Shown here: one piece after another, positions 6,519-49,933 of the stretch
How positions within the stretch are numbered: the first letter of the stretch is position 1
Layout: every line of letters begins with the position of its first letter
Assembly: GCA_013176395.1 (NCBI GenBank)
Contig: JABMLP010000013.1
Coordinates: forward strand, 682,001 to 746,000
Source: Venturia oleaginea
Lineage: Eukaryota > Ascomycota > Dothideomycetes > Venturiales > Venturiaceae
Length of the DNA stretch: 64,000 bases
Direction: 5' to 3'
The notes under the pieces: generated by a model
What the model saw: only the letters and a program-made list of their open reading frames with translations
Told to the model about the DNA's origin: nothing
Databases searched by the model: none
Translations under genes and position numbers: made by a program

Positions 6519-7230
6519 TAGCTGCCGTATTGTATGGCGCCGATCGTGCTATAGACCTGCCGTCTTATAGTCGGAGCCTACCTGCTGCTAGTCGCTCTCC
6601 CTACTTGCTATATCGCGCTCCTACTCTTGCCAATGCCATAACTGGGACGCAACAGTCTGGGGAGAGGCTCAAGGCTACGTCTGCTGGCTTGTAGGGAGGG
6701 GATTTGCCGCCAATAAGCTCCTTCTATACGTCCTTACTGCTTACTGTGTTGCGCACCTACTCTTGCCAATGCCATAACTGGGACGCAACAGTTTGGGGAG
6801 AGGCTCAAGGCTCTGAACATCAGCTTGCAGCAGGACGGTTTGCGGAGACGATAGTAGATGAGGTTCTCTAGCAGCTGCCGTATCGTGTCGCACCGATTGT
6901 GTTGTAGACCTGTCGTCTTATAGTCGGAGCCTATCTGCTGCTAGTCGCTCTCCCTGCTTGCTATATCGCGCACCTACTCTTGCCAATGCCATAACTGGGA
7001 CGCAACAGTCTGGGGAGAGGCTCAAGGCTACGTCTGCTAGCTTACAGGGAGGGGATTTGCCGCCAATAGGCTCCTTCTATGCGTCCTTACTACTTACTGT
7101 GTCGCGCACCTACTCTTGCCAATGCCATAACTGGGAGGCAACAGTTTGGGGAGAGGCTCAAGGCTTTGGGCAACAGCTTGTAGCAGGACGGTTTGCCAAG
7201 ACGTTGGGAGAGGTTGTCTAGTCGTTGCAG
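6519..7230. repeat. Nested tandem duplication, unit about 353 bp with internal sub-repeats
   Basis: Two imperfect copies start near 6519 and 6871. Each holds two copies of a sub-repeat beginning CTACTCTTGCCAATGCCATA, at roughly 6620, 6757, 6973 and 7111. The sub-repeat continues through ACTGGGACGCAACAGT and GGGGAGAGGCTCAAGGCT. The copies differ by scattered substitutions, so the duplication is not recent. No open reading frame runs through it on either strand, and I see no transposase motif. It could be a decayed element or a local minisatellite expansion. Confidence 0.75.
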
Positions 7231-8046
7231 TGGTGTGTGGTGCCGATTGTTGCGCACCGGGCGTCTGGTGTTTGAGTTGTGTTGAAGGTATTGCCGTTCT
7301 AGCAGTGACTCGTCGACTCGGAGCGTTGCAGTGTCATCTGGGGTGATGGACTAGCCGGGAGATAGTGACTAGATGGTTGCTGTTGTCTTTGGTGGACGCA
7401 TCGTTCGTGTAGCTTGCTCATGTATTCGTCTGCTTGCTCTGCCGTGGCCGCGACGGCGACTCTAGAGATATCTCATCGACGCTGAGGGACGCGCGATGGC
7501 CTCTAGAGGCCGGAGCGGCCACTGGCAGAGGTGTTTTGATGATCTTTAGATGATACTTCTGTAAATTCCAAAAATTGAGTTCTCGCTGTGTGTGCTGTTT
7601 TTTCTTCGTTCGGCTTAGTATTCGTTGAGAATCTTTGGACATGTTTTCAGCCTTGTCTCGTGACATGAGCCGGTCCGAGTGTACTTTAGCGACGCGTACG
7701 CGATTGGATCGTTACCGACTTACGACACAACGCCATCATGAGCGCATTACATTGCACGCGAGGAGACCTTATCCGATAGCCTGCGCAGCACATGTCACAT
7801 CCCAGTAATCGGAAGATGGTTGCGGGTGCTTGCTGCCGTCCTGCCATGCCACGAGGGACGATATGGTTGTCACATCTCACTGGTCAATGGCATAGGAACT
7901 CGGGATGGAGATACTGGAGCTAATGTAAGCAATTCTGGTCATACTGGGGTAGCTTTGCAGCCTCGTCAACTTTCAAGAGTCTGCATTGTGGCATTTTGGC
8001 TCGAGCTAATCCATTGATCCATCAAGCCATTGAATTCTGCATCACC
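7231..8046. other. Intergenic upstream of the hydantoinase gene
   Basis: About 800 bases with no supported gene. Short open frames exist but have no recognisable sequence. The promoter of the gene starting at 8047 must lie in its 3' part. Confidence 0.45.
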
Positions 8047-30778: not shown

Positions 30779-33045
30779 TCAACAGCAGTTACCCTTGCCT
30801 TTGTCACCAAAAGCCATGTGACTCAGCTTGTCAGTCAAATTAGTCGTGCCTTGGCCGCTGGGCGCACTCGAATAACTGGGTGGAATATCCAGGCAAGGAT
30901 TCTTCAGGAAGAAATTTCTCGGTCTCAGAAGCACGCTCATGGGTTCTGCAGGCCTTGAAAAGAATCAGTATGGGAGAACGCAGAGTTAATGGCGAAACTT
31001 ACATCACTGGGAAATCTTCAGGTGCCGGGAAATGTGTGAGTCCAAACGTATGCCACAGCACAACATCAGTGTTCACGATGGACTCTGAGGGATTTGCTGC
31101 AATCCAAGCAGGTAAACCCTGAGAAGGTTCTCCACTGGTCTGTGGAACGTGACGTCCAGCAGGATGAATTTGCGAATCGTCGTCTGGAAATATTGTTAGT
31201 ATTGAGGATGTATACAGTTCGCCCAGCACTCACATTTTGTGACGTGGACAGCATGCCGAGCAAAGCCTGCTCGCTTCCAGACCAATCCACCTTCTTTGAC
31301 GAGCAAAGTTGGCACCTCTCGGCTTACAAGTTTGTAACTCGTCGGCTTGTGGCTGTAGGGATTTATTTTGTTCTCGTTCGACATGTCCCAGGTTCTGCTC
31401 GTTACTCCATTGTAGTCGCATTTCGCTTCCTCTGGCGTGACAAGTTTCGTCTTCTTAGCATAGAAGGCATTGCCATATTTGTTCTCCGCGCTGCCTACTG
31501 CGCCCGCACCCATTTCAGCGTCAACTTGGAAGATCGTATTGTTTGGTCCATCAATGTTCGGGTCCAGTCGCAGACAGAATAGATGCTGATGGTTGTGAGC
31601 ATTGACACCTGGGTAGACCTCAGTTCCCCAGCCGTGCGTATCCTCGCCTGGGTTCATTGCATATGTGTTGAGGATACCAGTCAGCTTGATCTCAAGCTGG
31701 ATTGTGCCATCAAGGTGAAAGATCCAGTAGACGCAGTACTCGTAATTGGCAGCAGTGAAGACGTGAGAAATGATCAATTTGCGGGCGCGAGTAACGGTAA
31801 CTGAGTCGTCTCGGAAGTCGGTCTACAGCCATGTTAACATAGTTGAAAGAAGGCATTTCGTTACGAGGCAACTCACATGTTTGAACAAAATGCCAGCATC
31901 CTCTTCGTGTATGCAAATCGCGTTCTTGATGGTTGAAGGGGCTCCGGCACGATTGACGAAGTTGGCATCCATGTAATGAATAGCACCCTTGCAATCGCAC
32001 CCCAAGCTAAGGCTGTTTGTCATGTAGCCGCCACCATACTCGCCAAGATCAAAAGCATGCTTTCTCTGATGAGGGTGCTCAGGGTTGCCGTACGGAACCA
32101 CCATCTCGGCCAACGACATTCGCCAGAAAACTGGTCTTTCCGTACCCTTGTCATTGAATGTGATGTTGTTAAGAACAATGCCTTCACGGTAGTTGAAACC
32201 AACGTGAACCTTCCAGTTGACCCACTCCACAATATGTCCATCGACCTTGAAAGAAACACCTTCAGGTTGTGTAATGTTGATGGGCTTGAGATCTGTCCGG
32301 AAACCACCTTCTGCTTCGATGGCAGCGGCGTGGTAGTTGTTTGGAGGCGCCTTGTTGATGGGTCTCCGTACTTGAGGAACATCGATGTGAATGATCTCTT
32401 GAGTATCTGCGTTGAAGATTGGGCAAAAGTCGAGAGGATACGAGTACTGGCTGTCGTCGACATGGGGGCGGTAATACATGAGGGCTTGCTGCAACCTCAC
32501 GGAGCTGCCAAATCTCTCGTCGAAGCCAATTGTCCAAGCTGCATACACAATTAGACTTGTCCAGAGATAGAATTCCACAGAAATGACCTACGATCACAAT
32601 ACACCTTGTGCATATCTTCTGCCGGGATACCAATCAAGCCACACTGCTCAATGACCTTAGGATCCTTCCTCGCAATCGACTCTACGATCTGGAGATCCTC
32701 CATGGTGATGAGAGGCTGCACATCAGGGGTATATTCCCAAGAGAGGATTTTCTCCTCGTCCAAATCCACATGGCCGTCATAGACCTTGCTGCCTTTGCCA
32801 ATGCACACCACATCTGCTACCCTGTGTGGTCTGACAGTGTGCTCAGGATCTGCCAGCCAGGCCAGCATGTCTTTCTTCCGAGGCTCCCATAATGTAACAG
32901 CGTTGAAGAAGAGCTCTTTGTGTTCCTTTCGAATGATAGCGACCGCTCGCTCGATTTCAGACTCGGTAAGAGGATCGAAGGGGTGGGAAGGTCCTGTGTT
33001 GCCAGTAAGGTGAGAAGCTACCTGTTTCACTCTTTCGAGGACCAT
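30779..33045 (-). CDS. Copper amine oxidase (topaquinone enzyme)
   Basis: Oxidises primary amines to aldehydes with release of ammonia and hydrogen peroxide; likely peroxisomal or cytosolic, as no signal peptide is seen. Five exons (33045-32592, 32538-31877, 31822-31234, 31193-31013, 30953-30779) give 686 residues, the family length, with all phases closing. The topaquinone precursor Tyr is in AANYEYCVYW, copper ligands are HNHQH and the later His in HTFGLTH, and THFPAPEDFPVMP is the usual C-terminal block. The N-terminal region has HPFDPLTESEIERA. The C-terminus ends in Cys-Cys, with no peroxisomal SKL. With the amidase block at 0-13 kb it adds another nitrogen-releasing enzyme, though 18 kb away. 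Confidence 0.93.
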
Positions 33046-33140
33046 GGTTAGTAGCTACGGTTGAGGAGTATACAAGGAAGGATACAGAGTTCAGAATAAA
33101 GATTCAATTGATCAATAGCTGAGAAGGAGAGCTGAAAGCA

Positions 33141-35938: not shown

Positions 35939-37725
35939 CTACCTCGCCTCCATCTTTGAGGCGAACCACGCTGCAACCAAAGTCGAACAGCCTCCAAACC
36001 TCATCACCCATCCCAGGCCATCTCTCGGGACCAACCAGAAAATAACTCCGCTAACCAAGGCGGCTATAATCTGCGGGGCCGATATAGCAGAATTATGCAA
36101 TCCCATAATAGCACCTGCTTGGTCTTGCTGAGCAGGCTCGAGTTCTCCATCCAAAACAAGAGTGTTGAGCGCATTCCTTGCGGCAACATCCTTTCCAATC
36201 AACGCAAATGGAACCCAAAGCGTCCCTGCCCATGAAATACCGACGAAAGCTGCGAGAACGATAGCGGTGGTTTGTGATGTGATGAAGAAGGTGGAAAACA
36301 TGGATATCGAAAAGAGGAGATGAGTTGAGGTCCAGGCTGTAGTAATCGCGGTAGTGGGTTTCTGGCCAGCAACACGGATGAATCTCTGGATGATGAGGGG
36401 TAGTAAAATGTTTGTCAATAGCGCAAAGATCGCAAAGACAAGACTGGCAAGACTGCCTAATCGTGCCGCGTCTTCGACAATTTTCGCCTTGTTCCTGGAA
36501 GACATGTTGATATCGTCTGCGAGACGTGGTGCAGCATCTATAGTAGGTCAGCATCTCCTTAGATTTTTGGATCGCTTTGAGCTCACATAGGTGGCCAACG
36601 TAGCTGTACATATGGTTAGCTAGGATGCTACATCAGCGCTAAATTCTCTTACCTCGTTATGTAGAACAGGTAACCAAACCAACTCAGCCACGCGAAAAAT
36701 TGGACCCTGAAGACCTCAAATATTGAATATGGCAGAGCCTTTACACTCCAGACGATATGCTTTACGGTCTCAACGAAAGACAATCCGTCACCGAGCGGTG
36801 CCGGAAGTGAGTAAGGATCTTTCTCCTGTATCAAAACACAAGTAAGCCCAACAGTGGCTGAGAGGATAAACGAAGCAAAGATGCAGAGCCATGCAAATTG
36901 GCTGATATCGACCAATGGCATGATCGAATGAACCGGGATGGCTCCAAGGCCATAGCCAACGATGTTCCCAATGCCAGTAATGCGACTTGCCCACGCACTC
37001 GCTTCCGCTTGCTGTCGAGCAGGACAATTGTCCACGATCAAGGCGCGTATACCGGCTTGAAGTGGCTGTATACAAAGATTAAGCCCGATGATCCACGCTA
37101 TCGCTGAGAGTAACATCCAGGTCTGAGCGGCTCCATCCTTGATATTCCATTGCCAGATATGAGCCAGCATGTGGAAAGATGGCTTGGTGACAGCCAATCC
37201 GAGAATACAGACCATACATCCGATGGTTCCAACGAGGATGAAAGGTCTTCGTCGGCCCCAAGAGTTTTGACATCGATCACTCATTACCCCAACATATGGT
37301 TGCACCAAGAAACCGCACAGTGGTGCTGTATATGTTAGTGAATAATCATCTTAACGTGAATAAGACGAGAATACCAGCAGCCCAAACCAGTGCGGTAAGT
37401 GATTCGGGAAGTCCAAGCGTGAGGAGAAATGGCTGCTTCCGTATCAGTACGAAGGCAAAGGAGATGGAACATGGTATCCTACCGTTCCGTTGCCCATGAT
37501 CAAGGACCACACAACCTGCAACCTAGAAAAGCGACATCAGCCTTGTGTACTGTTTCGGTACGCCCGTCGATATCAATGTATAACTTACCCTCCGGTTGAA
37601 CAAGTCAATACAATCAAATACCGCGTGCTGGCTTCCTTCTCATCACTTTGACGAGAACTCTCAAAACTAGAGTCCCTACTCCTTTCCTCGTCATCTACAT
37701 CAACAAGGGCGCGATAATTAGCCAT
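35939..37725 (-). CDS. GPH/SUT-type sugar transporter (major facilitator superfamily)
   Basis: Proton symporter resembling fungal and plant sucrose or alpha-glucoside carriers. At least six exons from ATG 37725 (MANYRALVDVDDEE) give about 510 residues and 12 predicted membrane spans. Diagnostic sequence is LVQPYVGVMSDRCQ then WGRRRPFILVG in the first cytoplasmic loop, NLCIQPLQAGIRALIVDNCP in the fifth helix region, FFAWLSWFGYLFYIT, and GISWAGTLWVPFALIG near the C-terminus. All introns I could place are GT-AG and close in frame. It borders the RiPP-like cluster; whether it works with it (for example as exporter) is open, since the family normally imports sugars. Confidence 0.85.
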
Positions 37726-38393: not shown

Positions 38394-39190
38394 ATGGACA
38401 TTACAGAAACTATCACAAAAGACACCTCTCTACAAATGTCTTCCGGCTCATCTTCCTCTCCAAGCTACGCACCACTCCACGGCAAAGAAGAAAGGGACAG
38501 TGTAGACGGCCTCGACATGCTCCCTCTCCACCGATCTCGTTCTTCTCGCCAAAAGAATACCATAAAGGCTTTCAAAATCATTAGCGGATTGCTTCTCTTT
38601 GCTTTCATCGTCCTCACATTCGCCCTCTCCTTTCACGCCGTCGATCTACTCGGCAAAATCGGACACATGATCAACGAACCAAAGCCAGCATCCCACCAAC
38701 GAAGCTACAAATACCCCTGCGGTCAAACCGCAGCAGAAGCGAAGGAAAAAGGATGCATCCTCGATATAATGTCAATGGCATGGTAAACAAACCTCCCAAA
38801 CCCTCCTCTCCTCTCAAAAAAGCTAAAAGAAAAAAAACTCACACCACCCCCAGGCAATCACCTGAATGCTTCGACGAAGACCTTCACTCAGACTTCATGG
38901 ACCTCGGTCCCTGGAAATTCTACTCGGACGAAACAGCCACCCAGGAACTGTCTTATGAGCAGGTATCTCAAAAGGGCCAGATCAGTTGGGCGGAGAGGAG
39001 GTACTTCGTCGTTCATTGTATTTACGGGTGGAAAGCTATGCATCGCGCATGGCAGCGCGCGTGGAGGATGGATTCAAACCTCGCATCGATGGCTCACACG
39101 GAGCTTTGCTCAAGGGTGCTGGGGAATACGAGTGTACCCCTCGATGCAATGACGACTAGGATCCACGTAGACTTTCCGTCTTGCAATTAG
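38394..39190 (+). CDS. UstYa/DUF3328-related membrane protein A
   Basis: Two exons (38394-38782, 38854-39190) give 241 residues. A cytosolic Ser-rich tail is followed by one membrane span at about residues 60-85 (IISGLLLFAFIVLTFALSF) and a lumenal domain: the layout of UstYa oxidases that modify ribosomal peptides. The lumenal part has CGQTAAEAKEKGC, WKFYSDETAT and HCIYGWKAMHRAW. The two HxxHC motifs of the family are degraded here (FVVHC and HTELC). It is clearly the same subfamily as protein C at 46822-47586, which keeps both motifs intact. It may be a non-catalytic partner or a divergent oxidase. Nearest neighbour of the repeat precursor. Confidence 0.7.
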
Positions 39191-39407
39191 CAGTGTTGGT
39201 ATGTTCAAGTGGGAGCATGATTGTTAAGAGGTGATGGCGGTAACCTTTCAAGTACTTGCAATTCAAAGAATTCCTTACTATCCAGCGTCTTTAAGATTCC
39301 TCCAAGTTTTTTGCTGAGCATTCAAAAGCACTCGTTTCCAATACTAACACCGACATTACCTTTTTTTTCGTACCATTTCTTCATAACTGCAGGGTGCGAT
39401 CATTTTA

Positions 39408-39534
39408 AGCCGTAATCCTTTTTGAGTTTTAGCTCAACCGTAAATTAACCGCAACTTTACGGTTTACATAAATTAGCAACCGTAAAGTTGCGGTTGATTT
39501 ACCGATTATGCTAAACTCTAAAAGTAAAACGGTT
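39408..39534. mobile_element. Fold-back MITE-like hairpin flanked by TA
   Basis: Almost the whole 127 bp is two inverted arms of about 55-60 bases around a loop (TACATAAATTAGC). The inner 18 bases of each arm, AACCGCAACTTTACGGTT, pair perfectly and the outer parts imperfectly. TA dinucleotides flank both ends (39406-39407, 39535-39536), as expected for Tc1/mariner-type insertion. It stands between UstYa-like A and the precursor gene. It could also act as a hairpin in the transcript; no coding sequence. Confidence 0.7.
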
Positions 39535-39900
39535 TAGAAACACCGCATCCCGCGCCTATGGTTACACAAGCTTCTACGACGAAACACTACACGCACCGGA
39601 TGGCACAAATCTCTTCAACTTCGAGTTCAAGCATCACGTATATCTACGATGGCATTTGACAACACGGCCGGAGCGCCGGAACTCTTGGCGTAAAGCGAAA
39701 ACGGTAGTGTTATAATTTTCCAGGGAGGTGCCCAAATTCCCGCCACGGGTGCAAATCGCGCCAACACTATGTAAAGAAGATTCCAGTCCAAATCATGTAC
39801 ATCGGCAACTTGTTCAATCGCCCATCATCCGCCCGATGCCCTCGTTCCCAGGTTGCATTCGCCGCCCAAGTTCCTTTGCAGCTTTCGAAAACCCGAAAAT

Positions 39901-40478
39901 TCAATCCACCTTTGCGAAGAGAGGGTCGCGTTTGTCCACCTTTGCGAAGAGGGGATCGCGTTTGTCCACCTTCGCGAAGAGAGGGGCTCGTTTTTCAACT
40001 TTCGCAAAGAGAGGGTCACGCTTGTCGACCTTTGCAAAGAGAGGCTCGCGCTTGTCGACTGTCATAAGTCAGCACCCAAGAGGGAAAGTATAGCAAGGAA
40101 GTTGATGTACCCTTAGCGAACAACCTCTTATCAACTACGAGCTGTTAAAGTGTGATCAAATGTCAAGGAGAGAGAAAAAGAGACTTACTTTTAGCGAAAA
40201 GGGCTTCTGCATTGGACTCAGCATCGCGCTTGTCGATCTTGGCAAACAATGGGTTTGGCTCTCTCTTGTCGACTTGTGAAGATCAGTATAGTTCAAAGAC
40301 ATTCTTCCAGTGGTATGGACATGCCCTTAGCGAACAAAGGCGCGGCCTCAGCCTCCCGTTTGTCGGTTTTGGCAAATAATGGAGCTGCCTCAGCTTCACG
40401 TTTGTCGACCTTCGCGAAGAGAGGGCTTGCGACAGCGATGCCAAGGAAGGATGCGAAAGTGATGATGGAGAACTTCAT
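39901..40478 (-). CDS. Kex2-processed repeat precursor (RiPP-like secreted peptide precursor)
   Basis: Four exons (40478-40325, 40272-40189, 40134-40111, 40058-39901) give 139 residues. A signal peptide of about 17 residues (MKFSIITFASFLGIAVA) is followed by 11 copies of LFAK, mostly as PLFAK. The copies are separated by ten dibasic sites of the type V/T/I-D/E-K-R. The first two KR sites are followed by EAEA, the dipeptidyl-aminopeptidase trimming signal known from alpha-factor precursors. Released peptides would be about 7-10 residues with the core PLFAK. All three introns are phase 1 and interrupt the same codon of the repeat. The first uses a GC donor (GCATGT). Three UstYa-type genes nearby match the architecture of dikaritin-type RiPP pathways. 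No such core peptide is known to me. An alternative is an unmodified secreted KEP peptide. Confidence 0.85.
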
Positions 40479-40571
40479 AGTGAATGATGGTGAATCGAAG
40501 TAAAGATGTGAGAGTGAATGATGAAAGAATTTAGATGGTCAGGAATATGGAGGATGACCCTGTAATTTGCC

Positions 40572-40579
40572 TTATATAG
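40572..40579 (-). promoter_or_regulatory. TATA-like box of the precursor gene
   Basis: Reads ACTATATAAGG on the minus strand, about 95 bases before the ATG at 40478. Good TATA match at a normal distance. Confidence 0.5.
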
Positions 40580-40983
40580 TGTTTGGGTGACTTCAGACCC
40601 GATTCAGTTCAATGGCAGTTCGAACTCTTCGGCGAGTCGCGAGTATGCTATCGCCATAGCCCGGTGATATTCCATTTTGCAAGGGGTGCATGCTTTACCG
40701 GAGGATAGAGTGACCTCCGAATTTCTTGGTGAAGTGACATTTCTCCGAGAAAGAACACACTAATGATGTCCGGATGTTGTTCAATAGAGTCTGGCGGGTG
40801 GCGCGAACCGAGCTATGGGAACGAAGTAGAGCGGTAGGTTTGCTTTCAGGCCGAATCGGAAATATGCCCGGGGTAACACTCGCAACTCTACTAATGGCAC
40901 TTTTAGGTAAGATTGAATCGGCATTCTTTCCTCCGGTCTGTGATATCCCTCCTCTTGTAAAATTCTGTTTCTTCGAATTGAGA

Positions 40984-41971
40984 ATGCCATCCTCCATCGA
41001 CACAGCCAGCTATGAGAAAGCACCCATGCTCGAAGATAAATGGCAATCGGAAAATGTATCGTCAACTTCTAGCGAAGAAAATGGAGAAGCAGTCGCGATG
41101 CTGAAAGGAAGCAAGCAGAAGGAGAGTACGCCGAAGCCGTGGCCAGAACATCCAATGAAATGGATCAGGTCGCCTTGGGTGTTTTTGTTAGATCTCTTGC
41201 TTGTCACTCTGGTCATGATCTTTGCCTCTCGTGAGCCAAAGAGTGTTCACCTGGACTTTGCAGGAGACGTTACCGGTTTTGTGCCCAGATTTTCTCAGCA
41301 AATTGTGACTTTCAAGGCATATTCAGAATTCATATCGAACCATTCGTCGGAGGAATCGCTGAAGGAAGCTAGAGCACACTGGATGAACTTACTGCCTCGT
41401 GAGTTGCCTGATACGAAATCCTTCTGTGAGAACTACGACTGACATTTACAAGCCGGTCAAGGATTTGTCAAAGTCGATGAGACAGACTTGTTGGATTATG
41501 ATCTCCCAACCCCAATCGTGTCGGCCAAGGGCGTCAAAAGCGTCGGCACATCAATGATGCATGGTCTGCACTGCCTTGTAAGCATATGCATGATTCGTAT
41601 AGTATGTCTTGATTGACTAACAGCTGCACAGTATCTGATTATGTCCGAGTATGACATGCTGGCCATGGGACATCGACAGCCAGGCCATGATACGTGGCAT
41701 TTCGACCATTGCATCGATTATGTCAGGCAACTCCTTCTGTGTGGCGGTGATATGGCGCTCGCAGGCGAGACGCATCCTATGGGCGTCCGTAATCATATCT
41801 CCTGCCCTGTGGTTCCAATGCTAATGTTTATTCCAGGTCTCGGGCTCGGACTTTTTCAACGTCCCGCATTTGTGTAAGAATAAGGATCAGATGTTCGAAT
41901 GGCTTGAAGATCATAGGGACAATGATCAGTACCAGTTTGGATCTCATGAGACACATTATGTGCCTCCTTGA
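40984..41971 (+). CDS. UstYa-family (DUF3328) oxidase B
   Basis: Four exons (40984-41398, 41453-41577, 41632-41784, 41837-41971) give 275 residues with all phases closing. A charged cytosolic tail of about 60 residues is followed by one membrane span (WVFLLDLLLVTLVMIFAS) and a lumenal domain. Both HxxHC motifs are intact: MMHGLHCL and the pair WHFDHCIDYVRQLLLCGGD, the copper-binding signature of UstYa-type cyclases. The C-terminus has VPHLCKNKDQMFEWLEDH, typical of the family. Divergent from the precursor, about 500 bp away, so the two probably share a promoter. It is the most canonical UstYa protein of the cluster and the best candidate for modifying the LFAK peptides. Confidence 0.88.
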
Positions 41972-42292
41972 ACTGGTGTTTGACTGGTTGGTGGAATCGA
42001 TGTGGTGGAGAAAATATAGTAGATATTTGAAACAACTTATGTCATTCTCTTCAGCGAGTAGTTCTCATACTCCATCCCTAGAACATTCTGATCCTACATG
42101 CTGCCGTGCTCAAGAGATGCCAGAAGCAGGACCCAAACTCCATCAACAGTGGGGACTGCCAGTACGCCAATCAAAAGAACGCCTGTGCGAAATGCCGTTG
42201 CTGACCCGCAATCCTTCCAACGCCAGCCATTATCCGAGTCTTGTGCGCCGCGCTGCTGTGCCGCAATTACATGGCCAATATAAAACTACCCT
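41972..42292. other. Intergenic between convergent genes
   Basis: About 320 bases, nothing further supported. Confidence 0.45.
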
Positions 42293-42847
42293 CTAACCTG
42301 CAGACAATGTTTGCTCCACGGCCGCAATCTCCTCCCTCAGAGCTTTCACCAGACCTCGCTGATATTCCAATGTCGTGTTGTCTCGACCATGTGTCGATGC
42401 TTTCGCACTCGAAGGACCCAGCACCGTGTCGAGTTGCTGTGCAGCCTCAGCTGCTCGATTCAATTCATTTCTGAGGATGGCGGCTCGCGTGTGATCATCC
42501 AGAGGTGCTTCGACCTCGAACGCCCCAATCCGGACCCGACTGATGGCCCAGTATCCTTGGCTGGATCCACTGGAGCTTGTACTGACCGAGGAGGGAGACG
42601 CAGTGCTGCTGGAGGTATGAGCGAGGTGATTGTAGCACCGCACCGCCGTGCGCAGGACTAGGACGTAGATGGCAAAATATGAGGGATCCGTACAACTTTG
42701 GCAAGCTGCATACTGGCGACACACGGAGCTCGCGAAGCGGGAGGCATTCAAGACGTGGTCAACAGAAGTCGATGCGATGGATTGCTCGGTTCGATGAAGC
42801 TGGTCGGAGACTTGCAACGCAGATGCAAAGCATTGGCAGTCAGTCAT
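42293..42847 (-). pseudogene. AflR-type regulator, C-terminal part only
   Basis: A 184-codon frame ending at 42293, with coding-like sequence continuing upstream to about 42950. It matches the AflR C-terminal domain of the full regulator at 44624-46075: a DHVLNASRFASSVCRQYAACQSC stretch (shown in part), then FAIYVLVLRTAVRCYNHL, a VRIGAFEVEAPLDD segment and a terminal LVKALREEIAAVEQTL helix. No Zn2Cys6 DNA-binding motif is visible on this strand up to 43800. It is therefore either a truncated copy left by duplication or a regulator whose N-terminal exons I cannot resolve. A 51-codon frame upstream (about 42970-43130) is not obviously part of it. Confidence 0.6.
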
Positions 42848-42950
42848 GAAAGAGGATGTCTGTCTGGAATAAGCGAATATGCATGCGATAATGCCGGACC
42901 GTCGACCCGTCTCACTGGGATCTCGCCAGTATGTCGGGTGGAGGCGATAA

Positions 42951-44623
42951 GCGAAGGTTCAGTTTTGGTGGATTCTTTTAATTAACAATTCTGACTGTGT
43001 AGTCGTATGTAAGGGCCAGGGAGGCAAAGAGGCAGCAAGCAAGGGTGGCCAAAGTCCGGGCCATCAACTCCAATACAGTATAGCGAGGTGAGGTTGGCTC
43101 ACTAATGATACTGTTATCAAGTTGCACCAGCATGATTCTTTGTTCAGGATTCAAACGTCCTTCATCAATACATAATAAAGTGAGTTGAAGGGCGGCAGGC
43201 TACATAAAGCTGAGACAAATACGTTGGAAGCCTCCTTCTCTCAGACTAGAGAAGATCAATTGTTTCGAGCGGGCGCTACGAGGTACGCCGGTATTTTGGG
43301 CCTGACCGTACAGCTCTATTCATGTCCAGGTGGAATATGATTTCAACCTCACTGGGTCCAGCCTTGATACACAAGATCCACCGCTTTGTTAGTGCTATGA
43401 GAAGAAGAAAGAAGCAGGAAAAAGGAAGTTTCCTGTGGCCTGTATAGCGCTTTTAACCATTAATAACATCTAGCCTCATCGGGCTAGCACGGGCTAGATC
43501 AGGCTAAGATCGGGCAAGATCCGGATGAATCAGCTAGGGTCCCGCTCAAATTGAGTAAAAAGCGGGGCACATGATATTTACTGCTTTTTACCGTTATTAT
43601 CGCGGATATAATACATTTAGAGAGAGGGCCGCACGCCCGCCGCTCGGACGAGCCGATCCGTCTAGATCTGATGCTCAGCATTTTTACACATCTCTCCTTG
43701 TCAAACCATTAGCAATTCGATGGATCCCGTGCACTTCTGCAACCAGGATTCAGGATCATCATAAACAGACCTTGGTGAATAAGGTGAGAGCCAAAGCACA
43801 CGACTCCTAAGGCCACTAACTTCCACTCGCATATATCATCCAATCCTACTCAGACGAAAGATTTCGACACCCAGCGACATATTGCTCGGTGATGGAATCT
43901 TTTTGGGAATTTGCACTGGATTTGTATTGCAAAAGAACAGCAATGAGATTACTTGCCATGGTTTCGAGTCCTCGAGCTTAGGGTACTTTAGCTGCACCAT
44001 CAGACGCCCGCTTGCGGTCATCATCAACCACTGCCCCAGCCATTCACCAGTTCCCGCATCACGCTTTCGGTTTTCGAGTACTCCCCACGTACACGAGACG
44101 TCCCCAACGAAGCAAAGCCATTGGATTACTGAATGGGCTGCAAACCTGACTGGACGCTTGATCGAACCAATTCATCGAGGTGCAGCGAAATAGCCTGGCG
44201 CGACAAGGCTGCTCTCAATTCGTTGTTGCATCATTTGCATGCAAAATGTACAACATCTCCTCGCCATGCAGTGTTATCGGCCACTTCTACGTGGCTCATC
44301 CTCATTTCTGCTTGGTCAATCTCCATGATCTACGATCACCTGCAGATGTCCAGCCGTGCTTTTGTCTTCTCCAACAGTCCACTATCCTTGCCACCATGTG
44401 GCCGCCTGGAAACCATCATTCCAATGCATTTTTCCATCTCTCAACTTGCATGAATGCCGCGTTGGGTCTCTGCAGGTTGACTTCGTCTTTACTGCAAGAC
44501 TGGACAGCGGGCTAGCAATTCGAGTGCATACATAACTGTCCGGTACATGCCCAGTGCTGTTGTCCTCCGTTTCTCCAGTTTCAGCAAGCCATTTTCTCTT
44601 TGTTCATCACGCAGTGACACGAT
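42951..44623. other. Intergenic with a short direct-repeat tract
   Basis: At 43475-43530 there are about five imperfect copies of an 11-mer like ATCGGGCTAGC. The surrounding 43440-43690 segment may be an old element, but no terminal repeats or target duplication could be defined. A frame at 43882-44193 has no recognisable sequence. The rest holds the promoter of the regulator at 44624. Confidence 0.45.
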
Positions 44624-46075
44624 ATGTCCGGCACAACAGAATCCAATGGATCGACAACCTCAAACTTGCGCAAAGGCCATACCCGTAAAGAGTCATCGGG
44701 ACACACTTGCACCGCTTGTGATCAGGTAGGCCCCGAATCATCTGTTGGCGCTTGCTCTTTATTGATTGTAGAATTAGTGTTATAGATGCAAGGTGAAATG
44801 CTCTGGAGAACGTCCAATTTGTTCAAGATGTCAGAGCAGTAATTCAGCTTGCACATACTCCACCGGGAAGCCTCTTGGCAAGCCCAAGGGTAGCAAGAAC
44901 AAAGCACAGCGTGCAAAGATGGCGCCGGACACGGGCCGCCCAGGTGATGCTTCCCAGGATGCTGATCCTCTTCCTGGCAATAATCAACTGACAACAACCC
45001 AAGCAGCGAATACACCGCTTCTTCCCTTGAACAGAAAACGTTCAAATGATGAAGATACCTTGCCACAAGTAAGCGAGTACTTCACCATAGCATAAAGATT
45101 GACTAACAGCATTTTGAGCCAAAACGGGTTCTCGGTGCTGGGTCACATGAAGGTGATCGGAATTCAATTGCTTCATTCACGTCTCCGAAGTTCAATACTC
45201 CGGAGACGGCTATAAGCGCAATTCCCATACCTCGACTTCACCAGGAAAGAAACCATGTTCTTAGCCTCGAACCCGCCCCATACTACAGCAACCTAGTTGG
45301 TCAGAGCGATAGTCTTGGTCATGTTCTGGAAAATTCAACGCCAACGGCCATGGAGAACATCTTTCCTTCCGTAGGCCTCAACTTGGAGATGGAGGACTTC
45401 CATTGGTTCGCGCAACCAGAATCATACACATCTGACACTCCGAACGCTGCCACAATCGATCATCTGGTGCAATCAGATACCGTGCCATTGCTCCCGTCGC
45501 TCCAGACAAACGACGTGATGAAGATGAGCAATACTCATTCTCTAGAACTGGTGCCATCGTCTGGATCACCGCAGTTTGACAGGGACCCACCGTGTTTGTG
45601 CGATCCTTTGTCTCTTGGAATTATTTCGGAGCTCTACACTTTACAGCTTTCGTACTCACCATTGGACACGGCTCTCCTTCTTGCACGGCGGGGACTGAGT
45701 ACCGTCTCCTCCTACTTAGCCTGTCCTTCATGTCACAATCACCTGAGCAGTTCGCCTTCACTATTTCTGGCATGCGTGCTTATCTTGCGGCAGGTGTTTA
45801 CTTGTTACTTTACTTTACGAATGCATGGGACGAGAATGCTGGCGTCGCTTTCCAAACAGGAAGAACCCTCTCATCGCGTTGCGATTGGTGATTTTGAGGT
45901 CGAAGGCGAGGAATCATGTCATGCCTTGCTAGACGCCATCGTCCGAGCTGAAATGGAAAAGGGAAAGAGAGTTATTGGTGGGCTGGAACAATGGATGGAG
46001 AAGGTGGGAGATGGTCGAGACAAGATGGTGGGTGTGTTGCTACAATCACTCAGGGAAGAGATTGGTGGAGATTAA
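44624..46075 (+). CDS. AflR-like Zn2Cys6 transcription factor
   Basis: Probable pathway regulator of the peptide cluster. Exons 44624-44725, 44778-45068 and 45110-46075 give 452 residues. The N-terminus has CTACDQ, then after intron 1 CKVKCSGERPICSRC and ACTYSTGKPLGKPKGSKNK: the AflR type of binuclear zinc cluster with its basic linker. Intron 1 splits the cluster. The only in-frame acceptor I find (ending 44777) adds three residues (CYR) between the second and third canonical cysteines; the acceptor that would give the exact spacing is out by one base. The C-terminal half matches the AflR domain (ACPSCHNHLSS, LILRQVFTCYF, VAIGDFEVEGEE, LLQSLREEI). A middle region is Pro/Ser-rich. Confidence 0.82.
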
Positions 46076-46821
46076 CCAATCGATTGTTACAAAAAAAAAC
46101 TCGTTGCTTCACGACGACTAATTTGCTTCTTCCATTTCATGTCTGCAATGTGTATCTGAGCGACATGTTCGGAATTCTTTGGTGACACCGCAGGACTTTG
46201 TCTCGCACCTGCAGCATGCCATGCCATACATACTCACTTAGGTAGATGCAGACGGACCAACCATTTTTCGACTGAAATGGATGAATTATCGTGGAATGAA
46301 ATGAGATGATTCAGAATACCTCACCAATCGCAAATATCCTATCAATATCGTTCATCACCCCGTTTACCAGAACTTCAAACTACGATGCAATCTAATAATC
46401 ATCTTCCGGACTTTTCGTCTTGACGCGTCCACGTGTCTAGCGTCTGCATAATATGCCTAGCAGCACAATGTATGGACAACAAAGCTGAATGAGCGAGAAA
46501 AGGATGAAATGGACCCCTAGAGACCATTGTATTGCGGCAAGGGATAATGTGGAAATATGGAGCTGAATTGTTGAACAAAGAATGTATTGCATTGCATTAT
46601 ATCCGCTATATTTTTACACGACCAAATCCCCGATCTAACGGACGTGCATGGAACAACGCAGAGAAAGTGTGGGAACCGTGGAAAACCATTCTGTCGAATG
46701 GATAACGGAAGAAAGAAAGAGAACCAAAACTTCCCACGAGAATCATATCATTGCCATCTCCACGCCCATCAAAAACCAATCAACACTCCAACCAAAAGAA
46801 AAAGAAAAAAAGGCAAGAAAA
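46076..46821. other. Intergenic between convergent genes
   Basis: About 750 bases, nothing further supported. Confidence 0.45.
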
Positions 46822-47586
46822 CTAACTGAAAAGAACACACGCATCAAAAACCATATAAGCAACTGCATTCACCTTCCTCCTCTCCACCATAACCCCCTCC
46901 CCAAGTAAGCCCACACAATGCATCGTATGATTCAAATTCCCAATCTCACCTGGTATCAACACCCCCCCTCCACCACCCACCCCCAATAAAGCCCGATGAA
47001 CCCTCTCCCAAGCATACAAGCAATGCACAACATGATAATGATGCTCCGTCCACACAACCTCATGCTCACTTATTTCTTCCAGGGGAAGCGGCATCGTAGC
47101 ATTATGGTCTTTATAGAACGTCCACGGGCCGTGTTTTGCGTGGAAGGCTTGGGAGAGGGATTGCGAGTAGCAAGGTTGTGGTGTCCAAGCGAAGGACATG
47201 ACGTCGAATTTACAGCCTAGAGCGCGGGCTTCGGCGGGCGTGGTGCCGCAGTGTGATTTTTCTGTGGGTGTGAGGGTTGGTGGTGGGGTGAGGAAGGGGG
47301 TGTGGAGATTCAGGATGTGGGTTGGGTGGCCGTTTGTTAGTATGAGGAGGAGGAGGAGGAGGGAGGTGCTGGTTATGATGGAGATTAGGATGGAGATTAT
47401 TGAGGGGGTGCAGCAGGATTGGCGCCAAGTTCTGTTTGTCGGGTTGTTGGGCGAGGACTTTTCTAGGAATGCTTCGTTTTCGTCTTCGTCGTGGATGGAT
47501 GCTTCTTCGGAGGGCGAAGAGGTGTCGTGGTATGGCCTGAAGGATTGGCTGGGAGGGTACACTGATCCCTTCGTTAGGAGGACCAT
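46822..47586 (-). CDS. UstYa/DUF3328-related membrane protein C
   Basis: A single exon of 254 codons from ATG 47586. The cytosolic tail (about 60 residues) is acidic and Ser-rich. One membrane span follows (SIISILISIITSTSLLLLLL), then a lumenal domain with CGTTPAEARALGCKFDVMS, WTFYKDHNAT, YHVVHCLYAWERVHRAL and NLNHTMHCVGLL. The two HxxHC motifs of the UstYa family are both present (HVVHC, HTMHC). It is the intact relative of protein A (38394-39190). A poly-Gly stretch (GVGGGGGV) lies between the motifs. It closes the cluster on its right side. The opposite strand also has long open frames here, but without family sequence. Confidence 0.78.
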   Translation of the reverse strand: MVLLTKGSVYPPSQSFRPYHDTSSPSEEASIHDEDENEAFLEKSSPNNPTNRTWRQSCCTPSIISILISIITSTSLLLLLLILTNGHPTHILNLHTPFLTPPPTLTPTEKSHCGTTPAEARALGCKFDVMSFAWTPQPCYSQSLSQAFHAKHGPWTFYKDHNATMPLPLEEISEHEVVWTEHHYHVVHCLYAWERVHRALLGVGGGGGVLIPGEIGNLNHTMHCVGLLGEGVMVERRKVNAVAYMVFDACVLFS

Positions 47587-48621: not shown

Positions 48622-49933
48622 TCAAATAGTCTCACGCTTATTCCAGAACTCTTCCCACCGAGCAGCGCATTTGTCCTGGACCCAGCAGCCTGCTAGATGT
48701 ACGACTAGATCTCCTTTGTACCATTGCATGGTTGGGCCGCCTTCGACGTAGGCGTTTGCGACTCGTTGGTTTATGATTCCCGTGTGTTCGCGGAAGGTCT
48801 TGTGATGTTTGATGAAATGGATCTGTCATTGCGTTAGCCGCTTCAGATTGAAGTGAAACAGAAAAGTTTCGTTTACCAAACCATCTTGTTCTTTGCCAGG
48901 CCAGTCCATCTTCGTGAGAAATGGGTCTGCCCACATGTCCAATAGCCACTGTGTGTACTTGCTTCTACGCAGAAAGAAGCTGCCGGCGTTCAAACCATTA
49001 TGATCCTGTGCAATGAGCATATCAAGGTTATCCAAATCTGCATGGTCCGGCATATAAATGCCAAATGGTGATCTTTCCGCGCCAGTCAATGGCGCTCCCC
49101 AGGCCATCGACTTCTTCATGCCTTTGTGCGACAAGACCAATTCTGTCAGGTCCTGCTTCACGTTCATGATGATAGCATCCAAGTCCAAGAAAAATAGCCA
49201 CTTTGCGTTCGGGAATGTGTTGAAGGCCTCCACTATGGCGGGGACCTTCTTCCAGACGGGAGAAGCGTCTCCCATGTCGAATTTGGAGATGTTGACAAAA
49301 TGGTAGTTGTAGCCATGACGCTCGCAGTACTCTTTGCGGTTCTGTGTCGTCTGTCCAAGAATATCTCTTATGCCTCCATTGTGACCCTTTCCATCCGCAG
49401 CCGTAAGCACAATGATTTCATTTGGTTTAGGCCCTTCAGGCGTGTGCACCATGTCTTTCGGGATGGTCAAGGTGGTGTTTGTGGTTTCGAGTGGTTTAAC
49501 CTTCCAGGCTTTGGAGGAAGGACATTCGGTAGGCTCGGTTGGCTTCGCGGCCACCGTTACAGTGACGGTAACAGGCAGAACGGTCGCCTCGCCAGAATAG
49601 CTGTCATGGCTATCTGGCACACTGTCGGGCCTCTTGAATTTGGGCGGTGTCGATTTGACGGTGTCTACTTGTTCCGCTCCTGAATACGTCGGCCACATCC
49701 ATTCCTTCCATGAGGTTGGGGATTGCGCACCTGGGCTCGCGTCGGAGCTGCCGGAGTATTGCAGCAGTTGGACGGTAGCAAGGAAAACGAGGATGAGGAT
49801 GGTGGCCGTAAGGTATCTGTTTGGTTACTTGTCAGTATGTGCTCTAACCCAAACTTGGCATGTTTGGTTTGCGATTTCCGGTTTGCGGTTCGCGTCAAAG
49901 TCCCACTCACGTCCTTGTCACGCGATGAATCAT
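48622..49933 (-). CDS. Alpha-1,2-galactosyltransferase-like GT34 enzyme (GMA12/MNN10 family)
   Basis: Golgi type II membrane glycosyltransferase that adds hexose to glycoprotein glycans. Three exons (49933-49911, 49816-48877, 48822-48622) give 387 residues. The N-terminal membrane anchor is YLTATILILVFLATVQLL, followed by a Pro/Thr-rich stem. The catalytic domain has IIVLTAADGKGHNGGI, EYCERHGYNYHFVN, VWKKVPAIVEAF, the nucleotide-sugar DxD motif in WLFFLDLDAIIM, LNAGSFFLRRS, and in the last exon HHKTFREHTGIINQR and VVHLAGCWV. The first exon is only 23 nt. No sign that it belongs to the peptide cluster. Confidence 0.9.

Follow-up and report, generated by a model that had tools for sequence, protein, structure and literature searches.

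A Tyr-free repeat precursor beside an UstYa gene in Venturia oleaginea: a likely small dikaritin-type peptide cluster

The window analysed here (the whole stretch of 64,000 nucleotides of Venturia oleaginea, i.e., C5:682001–746000 on contig JABMLP010000013.1 of a 46.08-Mb genome assembly of 61 contigs) carries, between 38.4 and 47.6 kb, a gene for a precursor with LFAK repeats, genes for three single-span proteins (A, B and C) and two regulator-like genes (R1 and R2; Table 1). The question raised by this locus is whether it is a cluster for a ribosomally synthesised and post-translationally modified peptide (RiPP) of the dikaritin type, in which an UstYa (DUF3328) oxidase acts on the excised repeats, or whether the precursor simply yields a linear, pheromone-like peptide. 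An initial annotation had proposed a complete dikaritin-type cluster with three UstYa-type proteins and a PLFAK core. Based on its gene content, the dikaritin-type reading is still the best available, given the Kex2 repeat precursor, the UstYa gene nearby and the occurrence of A, B and C together elsewhere, but the core, two of the UstYa labels and the completeness had to be revised. We put the probability that the locus is a small dikaritin-type RiPP cluster, with a modified LFAKVD-type hexapeptide as its likely product, at roughly 0.6.

Joined across its exons in the minus-strand frame, the precursor contains 11 LFAK copies and 10 Lys-Arg (KR) sites, the same counts as in the initial annotation, and LFAK is present in all 11 KR-bounded units. 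Introns 2 and 3 have GT-AG borders, and intron 1 requires a GC-AG pair. The N-terminus holds a single hydrophobic stretch (judged by Kyte-Doolittle), and with this stretch taken as the signal, the combination expected of a dikaritin precursor (i.e., an N-terminal signal and repeated cores between Kex2 sites) is present. The LFAK copies are written with eight different 12-mers that differ only synonymously, the variable sites being all four third codon positions plus the first position of the Leu codon; this restriction suggests that the minus-strand peptide is under selection. A plus-strand reading of the repeat (FAKRGSRLST, in the open reading frame (ORF) at 39836–40093) was rejected, as the plus-strand frames turn the 11 copies into 8, 3 and 8 different peptides, a constant LFAK appears on the minus strand only, and the relatives have the minus-strand protein.

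A homolog search among 5.8 billion proteins yielded four matches at E ≤ 10. The repeat recurs in three of them, P0001 (113 amino acids (aa)), P0002 (108 aa) and P0004 (79 aa), with P0004 reading LFAR and some copies of P0001 reading AFAK. The fourth, P0003 (named Actinophytocola, bacterial and coiled-coil-like), was discarded as unrelated. The P0001 ORF appears to run through introns at the positions of window introns 1 and 2, suggesting that the split gene structure is common to both. No second copy of the precursor was found above chance in the V. oleaginea genome, where the best match beyond three pieces of the gene itself had an E-value of 0.77.

The spacers from cut site to LFAK in the window precursor read SP, EAEAAP, EAEAAP, EPNP, DAESNAEA, none, EP, DP, AP, DP and DP. 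Over this precursor, P0001, P0002 and P0004 together, all 24 spacers are of even length and 23 of them consist of X-A/X-P dipeptides only, with the reservation that many of the 24 duplicate one another and are not independent. The lone exception is the ES in DAESNAEA, and the matching place in P0001 reads EA (DAEAIAEA). Such X-A/X-P spacers are the signature described for Ste13 in passages of Le Marquer et al. (PMC6339444) and of PMC9769878, so that the Ste13 signature after Kex2 sites that characterizes alpha-pheromone precursors recurs in nearly every copy.

At the other end of the core, the last copy ends as LFAKVD-stop in the window precursor and P0002, and as LFARVD-stop in P0004; since the final copy thus stops directly after VD, the C-terminal core boundary would be the D. 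When the dipeptides are stripped (with ES counted as removable), the 11 window cores read LFAKVD (7), LFAKID (2), LFAKTD (1) and LFAKVE (1), and it is strongly suggested by these sequences that the predicted peptide is LFAK[V/I/T][D/E], mostly LFAKVD. The PLFAK core proposed at first is probably wrong: its Pro is part of the variable dipeptide (SP, AP, DP, EP, NP) and missing in 2 of the 11 copies, the last copy continues to the VD-stop, and both the spacer rule and this end favour LFAKVD. That the core lacks Tyr, as had also been pointed out, holds for LFAKVD too. Among candidate proteases, the genome has four DPPIV_N matches (three genes; gene counts from Pfam matches of DPPIV_N and UstYa are our own grouping) and one match to the kexin-type P domain.

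These spacers also lend themselves to a rival explanation, i.e., that the precursor gives rise to an unmodified linear signalling peptide matured like alpha-pheromone (by Kex2, Kex1 and Ste13), with the oxidase genes belonging to another pathway or being relics. Ascomycete alpha-pheromone precursors likewise have Kex2 sites followed by X-A/X-P dipeptides ahead of each core, linear peptides from Kex2-processed repeat proteins (KEPs) were detected experimentally in agaricomycetes according to excerpts of PMC9769878, and a core devoid of Tyr suits such a peptide. In contrast, LFAKVD fits neither type of Dothideomycete alpha-pheromone core named in the parts of PMC6339444 at hand (two Cys, or PYGxPxG). 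Moreover, the window precursor has an UstYa neighbour, whereas putative alpha-pheromone genes were without a DUF3328 neighbour in 100% of 227 and 98.6% of 216 cases in the excerpted text of Umemura 2020 (PMC7329392). We consider a linear product unlikely, while granting that it deserves serious weight.

The UstYa neighbour in question is gene B, which scores 44.3 bits against Pfam UstYa (PF11807) when unspliced and 72.2 bits when spliced (cut-off 25). It carries two HxxHC motifs (HGLHC and HFDHC) and a single strongly hydrophobic segment; according to the available portion of a lichen study (PMC12048977), some DUF3328 proteins have other functions and a double HxxHC marks the RiPP-related ones. 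B is situated 505 bp from the precursor, and since only 17 PF11807 genes (grouped from 23 matches) exist in the 46-Mb genome, this spacing is unlikely to be due to chance. The two genes diverge from the region between them, which may hold a promoter shared by both. The relatives of B include P0005 of V. nashicola (84% identity over 95%) and P0006 of Trichodelitschia bisporula (51%), and the degree of conservation in V. nashicola argues against a linear peptide with relic oxidase genes. Sequence relatives of B in the PDB were absent at E ≤ 1, and the structure model of a B ortholog was poor (mean predicted local distance difference test score of 46), making a fold comparison impossible.

The label UstYa-type, initially given to A, B and C alike, stands for B by its PF11807 match but not for A and C, neither of which matched PF11807 at E ≤ 1. 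A and C are 31% identical to each other; A has orthologs in V. nashicola (P0027, 89%) and V. inaequalis (P0028, 87%), and C has relatives in V. inaequalis (P0037, 66%) and V. nashicola (P0043, 61%). In an alignment of 13 members of this family, hand-picked from 46 matches and the two window proteins, PF11807 matched only two (best E 1.1) and thus does not place the family with UstYa. When profiles of A/C and B were compared, the HxxHC pairs aligned in register, but with a probability of 1.6% and an E-value of 0.031, by which common descent is not established. The structure model of C is confident for residues 111–190 (block means 86–92) and had no PDB match at E ≤ 0.001. By these comparisons, A and C form a distinct single-span family that is missed by Pfam.

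Within the same alignment, both HxxHC motifs are kept in 7/7 C-type members and are absent as such in 6/6 A-type members (window A, P0027, P0028, P0031, P0034 and P0051), where motif one has F or L in place of its first His, and motif two has L, F or V in place of its second. In window A, the sites read FVVHC and HTELC, so that two of the four motif His are missing. Of the earlier description of three single-span HxxHC proteins, the one strongly hydrophobic segment therefore applies to A, B and C, and the two motifs to B and C, but not to A.

The cluster proteins have their closest named relatives in V. nashicola and V. inaequalis (protein searches), and the three single-span genes also appear to travel together. 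Taking contigs of identical size in bp as one contig, A, B and C share a 1,074,189-bp contig in V. nashicola (P0027, P0005 and P0043) and a 1,906,560-bp contig in T. bisporula (P0051, P0006 and P0056), while further pairings are A with C on 64,706 bp (P0034, P0048) and B with C on 13,504 bp (P0008, P0032). T. bisporula belongs to the Phaeotrichales and Venturia to the Venturiales, both within the Dothideomycetes. These data indirectly support co-location of A, B and C in another Venturia species and in another genus, the comparison covering same-contig placement only. Such joint occurrence again speaks against oxidase genes that merely happen to lie beside a linear-peptide precursor.

Within the V. 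oleaginea genome itself, A/C-type genes are found at six places, and at three of these (C5, C4 and C9) UstYa genes are no more than a few kb away. The C9 place harbours a second Kex2-repeat precursor (L036, minus strand, 2135–2674) in which YEDIIRDVSDRETGGV[I/V]A[N/H] occurs six times, separated by KKR, and which probably has a signal-peptide exon; its neighbours are two UstYa matches (L036 4908–5279 and 5855–6406) and one A/C-type ORF (7192–7950). At the C4 locus (C4:642958–649132, L033–L034), one UstYa gene and three genes of the A/C family lie in a stretch of about 6 kb, and a simple scan revealed no repeat precursor there.

The regulators appear less well preserved. R1 scores below the curated AflR (PF08493) cut-off of 24 bits and is 28% identical to the C-terminus of R2 (E 8e-11). 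A Zn2Cys6 pattern scan of the window, which intron-split motifs can escape, yielded only one second half of the motif, namely that of R2, and none for R1, which is probably a fragment without a visible DNA-binding domain. The Zn2Cys6 half of R2 matches Zn_clus, and its C-terminal part gave nothing for PF08493 at E ≤ 1. At the first junction in this assembly, the two halves of R2 are out of frame by one base when joined at the canonical splice sites tried, which may reflect an error of the assembly, a splice site of unusual type or a defective gene. Of the two AflR-type regulators announced initially, there remain a Zn2Cys6 domain in R2 and a sub-cut-off AflR match in R1, but neither has both domains together. 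AflR binds the motif TCGN5CGA, and sites of this kind are not enriched in the window (16 matches vs. 14.95 expected), with none in the region between the precursor and B.

This apparent damage, together with the repeats inserted in the locus, i.e., the MITE-like (miniature inverted-repeat transposable element-like) palindrome between A and the precursor (28 matches at 14 genome places, itself included, each place on both strands) and the dispersed repeat between R1 and R2, could be accommodated by a linear peptide accompanied by relic genes. It would also fit a decaying cluster, in which precursor or regulator is non-functional in this isolate, leaving a relic of a dikaritin cluster that other Venturiales have intact; the truncated R1, the R2 junction that is off by one base and the GC-AG precursor intron all agree with this. 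In contrast, the LFAK copies differ synonymously only, A, B and C have conserved relatives and keep open frames throughout their modelled exons, and P0001 has the split precursor structure in common with the window gene. Decay thus appears improbable to us.

Table 1. Features of the LFAK repeat locus and their coordinates in the window
Feature	Coordinates (exons)	Strand	Basis
Gene A, 241-aa single-span protein, two exons	38394..39190 (38394-38782, 38854-39190)	+	frame, orthologs; not PF11807
MITE-like inverted repeat between A and precursor	39403..39545	.	genome repeat search
Repeat precursor, 139 aa, four exons	39901..40478 (40325-40478, 40189-40272, 40111-40134, 39901-40058)	-	joined open frame, homologs
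Intergenic region, 505 bp, precursor and B diverge from it	40479..40983	.	gene models
Gene B, UstYa family (PF11807), 275 aa, four exons	40984..41971 (40984-41398, 41453-41577, 41632-41784, 41837-41971)	+	Pfam, gene model
R1, AflR-C-terminus-like ORF	42293..42847	-	AflR 16.2 bits, similarity to R2
Dispersed repeat between R1 and R2	43443..43616	.	8 genome matches, 7 elsewhere
R2, regulator with Zn2Cys6 match and C-terminal homology to R1	44624..46075	+	Zn_clus 29.3 bits
Gene C, 254-aa single-span protein, single exon	46822..47586	-	same family as A, motifs HVVHC + HTMHC

The Pfam scan covered 28 ORFs or pieces, i.e., part of the window's ORFs and short exons. Among these, no further gene was recognised between 38.4 and 47.6 kb, in agreement with the earlier statement that no housekeeping gene lies inside the locus, and neither was a tyrosinase, a methyltransferase or a peptidase, so that completeness of the cluster is not demonstrated; in passages of PMC12048977, these three enzymes do not occur in every described dikaritin cluster. 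The locus is bordered on the right by a glycosyltransferase family 34 (GMA12/MNN10) gene (48826–49698, minus strand). To its left lie an MFS transporter-like gene (35939–37350, minus strand; MFS match slightly under the Pfam cut-off) and a copper amine oxidase (31196–33054, minus strand).

Compared by their descriptions, the window locus resembles the ustiloxin and phomopsin dikaritins in its Kex2 repeat precursor, UstYa/DUF3328 enzyme and short core, and differs from them in its Tyr-free core, its Ste13-like spacers, the A and C proteins outside PF11807, and the tyrosinase and methyltransferase not found in the ORFs scanned. Victorin, as described in part of a review (PMC9233826), is cyclised without Tyr via Phe and Leu, both of which are present in LFAKVD. 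For phomopsins, the formation of dehydro-Ile, dehydro-Asp and dehydro-Pro is ascribed to three DUF3328 proteins (review PMC10880069, in excerpt). More generally, DUF3328 genes stand beside 22% of 7878 KEPs, with an average of 3.09 genes, and among 76 relatives of Ste13-type KEPs from basidiomycetes, 17 have DUF3328 genes (passages of PMC7329392), and thus Ste13-type spacers combined with DUF3328 are not unprecedented.

Under the dikaritin-type reading, the precursor would enter the secretory pathway by its hydrophobic N-terminus, Kex2 would cleave after each Lys-Arg, and Kex1-type trimming would take off the basic residues. A Ste13-type dipeptidyl aminopeptidase would then remove the X-Ala/X-Pro spacers, which the sequence strongly suggests would release LFAK[V/I/T][D/E], mainly LFAKVD. 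Membrane-anchored B may oxidise this peptide, for which C, and A with its degenerate motif, may serve as partner or accessory proteins, and R2 is the likely local regulator. By analogy with the reviews on victorin and phomopsin, a crosslink between Phe and Leu or dehydro forms of Val/Asp would be candidate modifications.

Several points weigh against this reading. The core has no Tyr, whereas 65.6% of the repeats near DUF3328 genes contain Tyr (PMC7329392, in excerpt), and the Ste13 signature in Ascomycota is generally dedicated to (unmodified) alpha-pheromones in the passages of PMC6339444 available. The precursor relatives cannot be linked to A, B and C: the contigs of P0001 and P0002 measure 1.9 and 1.0 kb, and among the 22 B and 46 A/C matches listed, none is on a contig sized like that of P0004 (34,734 bp). 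At three of the six A/C places in the genome (C60 and two weak C15 matches), there is no nearby UstYa gene. R1, and perhaps R2, look damaged.

A literature text search on LFAKVD returned nothing related by title, and one on Venturia with UstYa returned nothing, in keeping with the earlier remark that no product with such a core had been described. The kind of locus is nevertheless known from V. inaequalis, for which Rocafort et al. 2022 (PMC9632046, in the part available) report nine dikaritin clusters, with Cin3 in dikaritin-2. These clusters are alike in being from the same genus and in having a signal-peptide repeat precursor beside DUF3328 genes, and the species has the relatives of A (P0028) and C (P0037) mentioned above. 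Given these nine clusters, the window locus may already be catalogued among them; the survey, however, required repeats of at least 10 residues, and the clusters were compared by description only.

Three traits of this locus are unusual, namely the predicted trimming in the manner of a pheromone, the lack of Tyr in the core and the presence of the A/C proteins. An origin of dikaritin-type precursors from mating-pheromone-like ones was proposed in passages of PMC7329392 and posed as a question in the review PMC9233826. Speculatively, and we hold this to be decidedly doubtful as a whole, a pheromone-style precursor (Kex2, Kex1, Ste13; core LFAKVD) would here have been recruited into an oxidative RiPP pathway, as a living intermediate for that proposed origin, while A/C would be an unrecognised RiPP-tailoring family outside PF11807, in which A would assist C or B without being catalytic itself. 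In practical terms, a LFAKVD core instead of PLFAK alters the masses to seek, the calculated [M+H]+ values being 692.398 for LFAKVD, 706.413 for LFAKID or LFAKVE and 694.377 for LFAKTD, with oxidised forms 2.016 lower (690.382 for LFAKVD), and the A/C family would serve genome miners as a second fungal RiPP-cluster marker, invisible to PF11807. Moreover, a precursor with a pheromone processing signature beside an UstYa gene makes the origin of dikaritins from pheromones testable.

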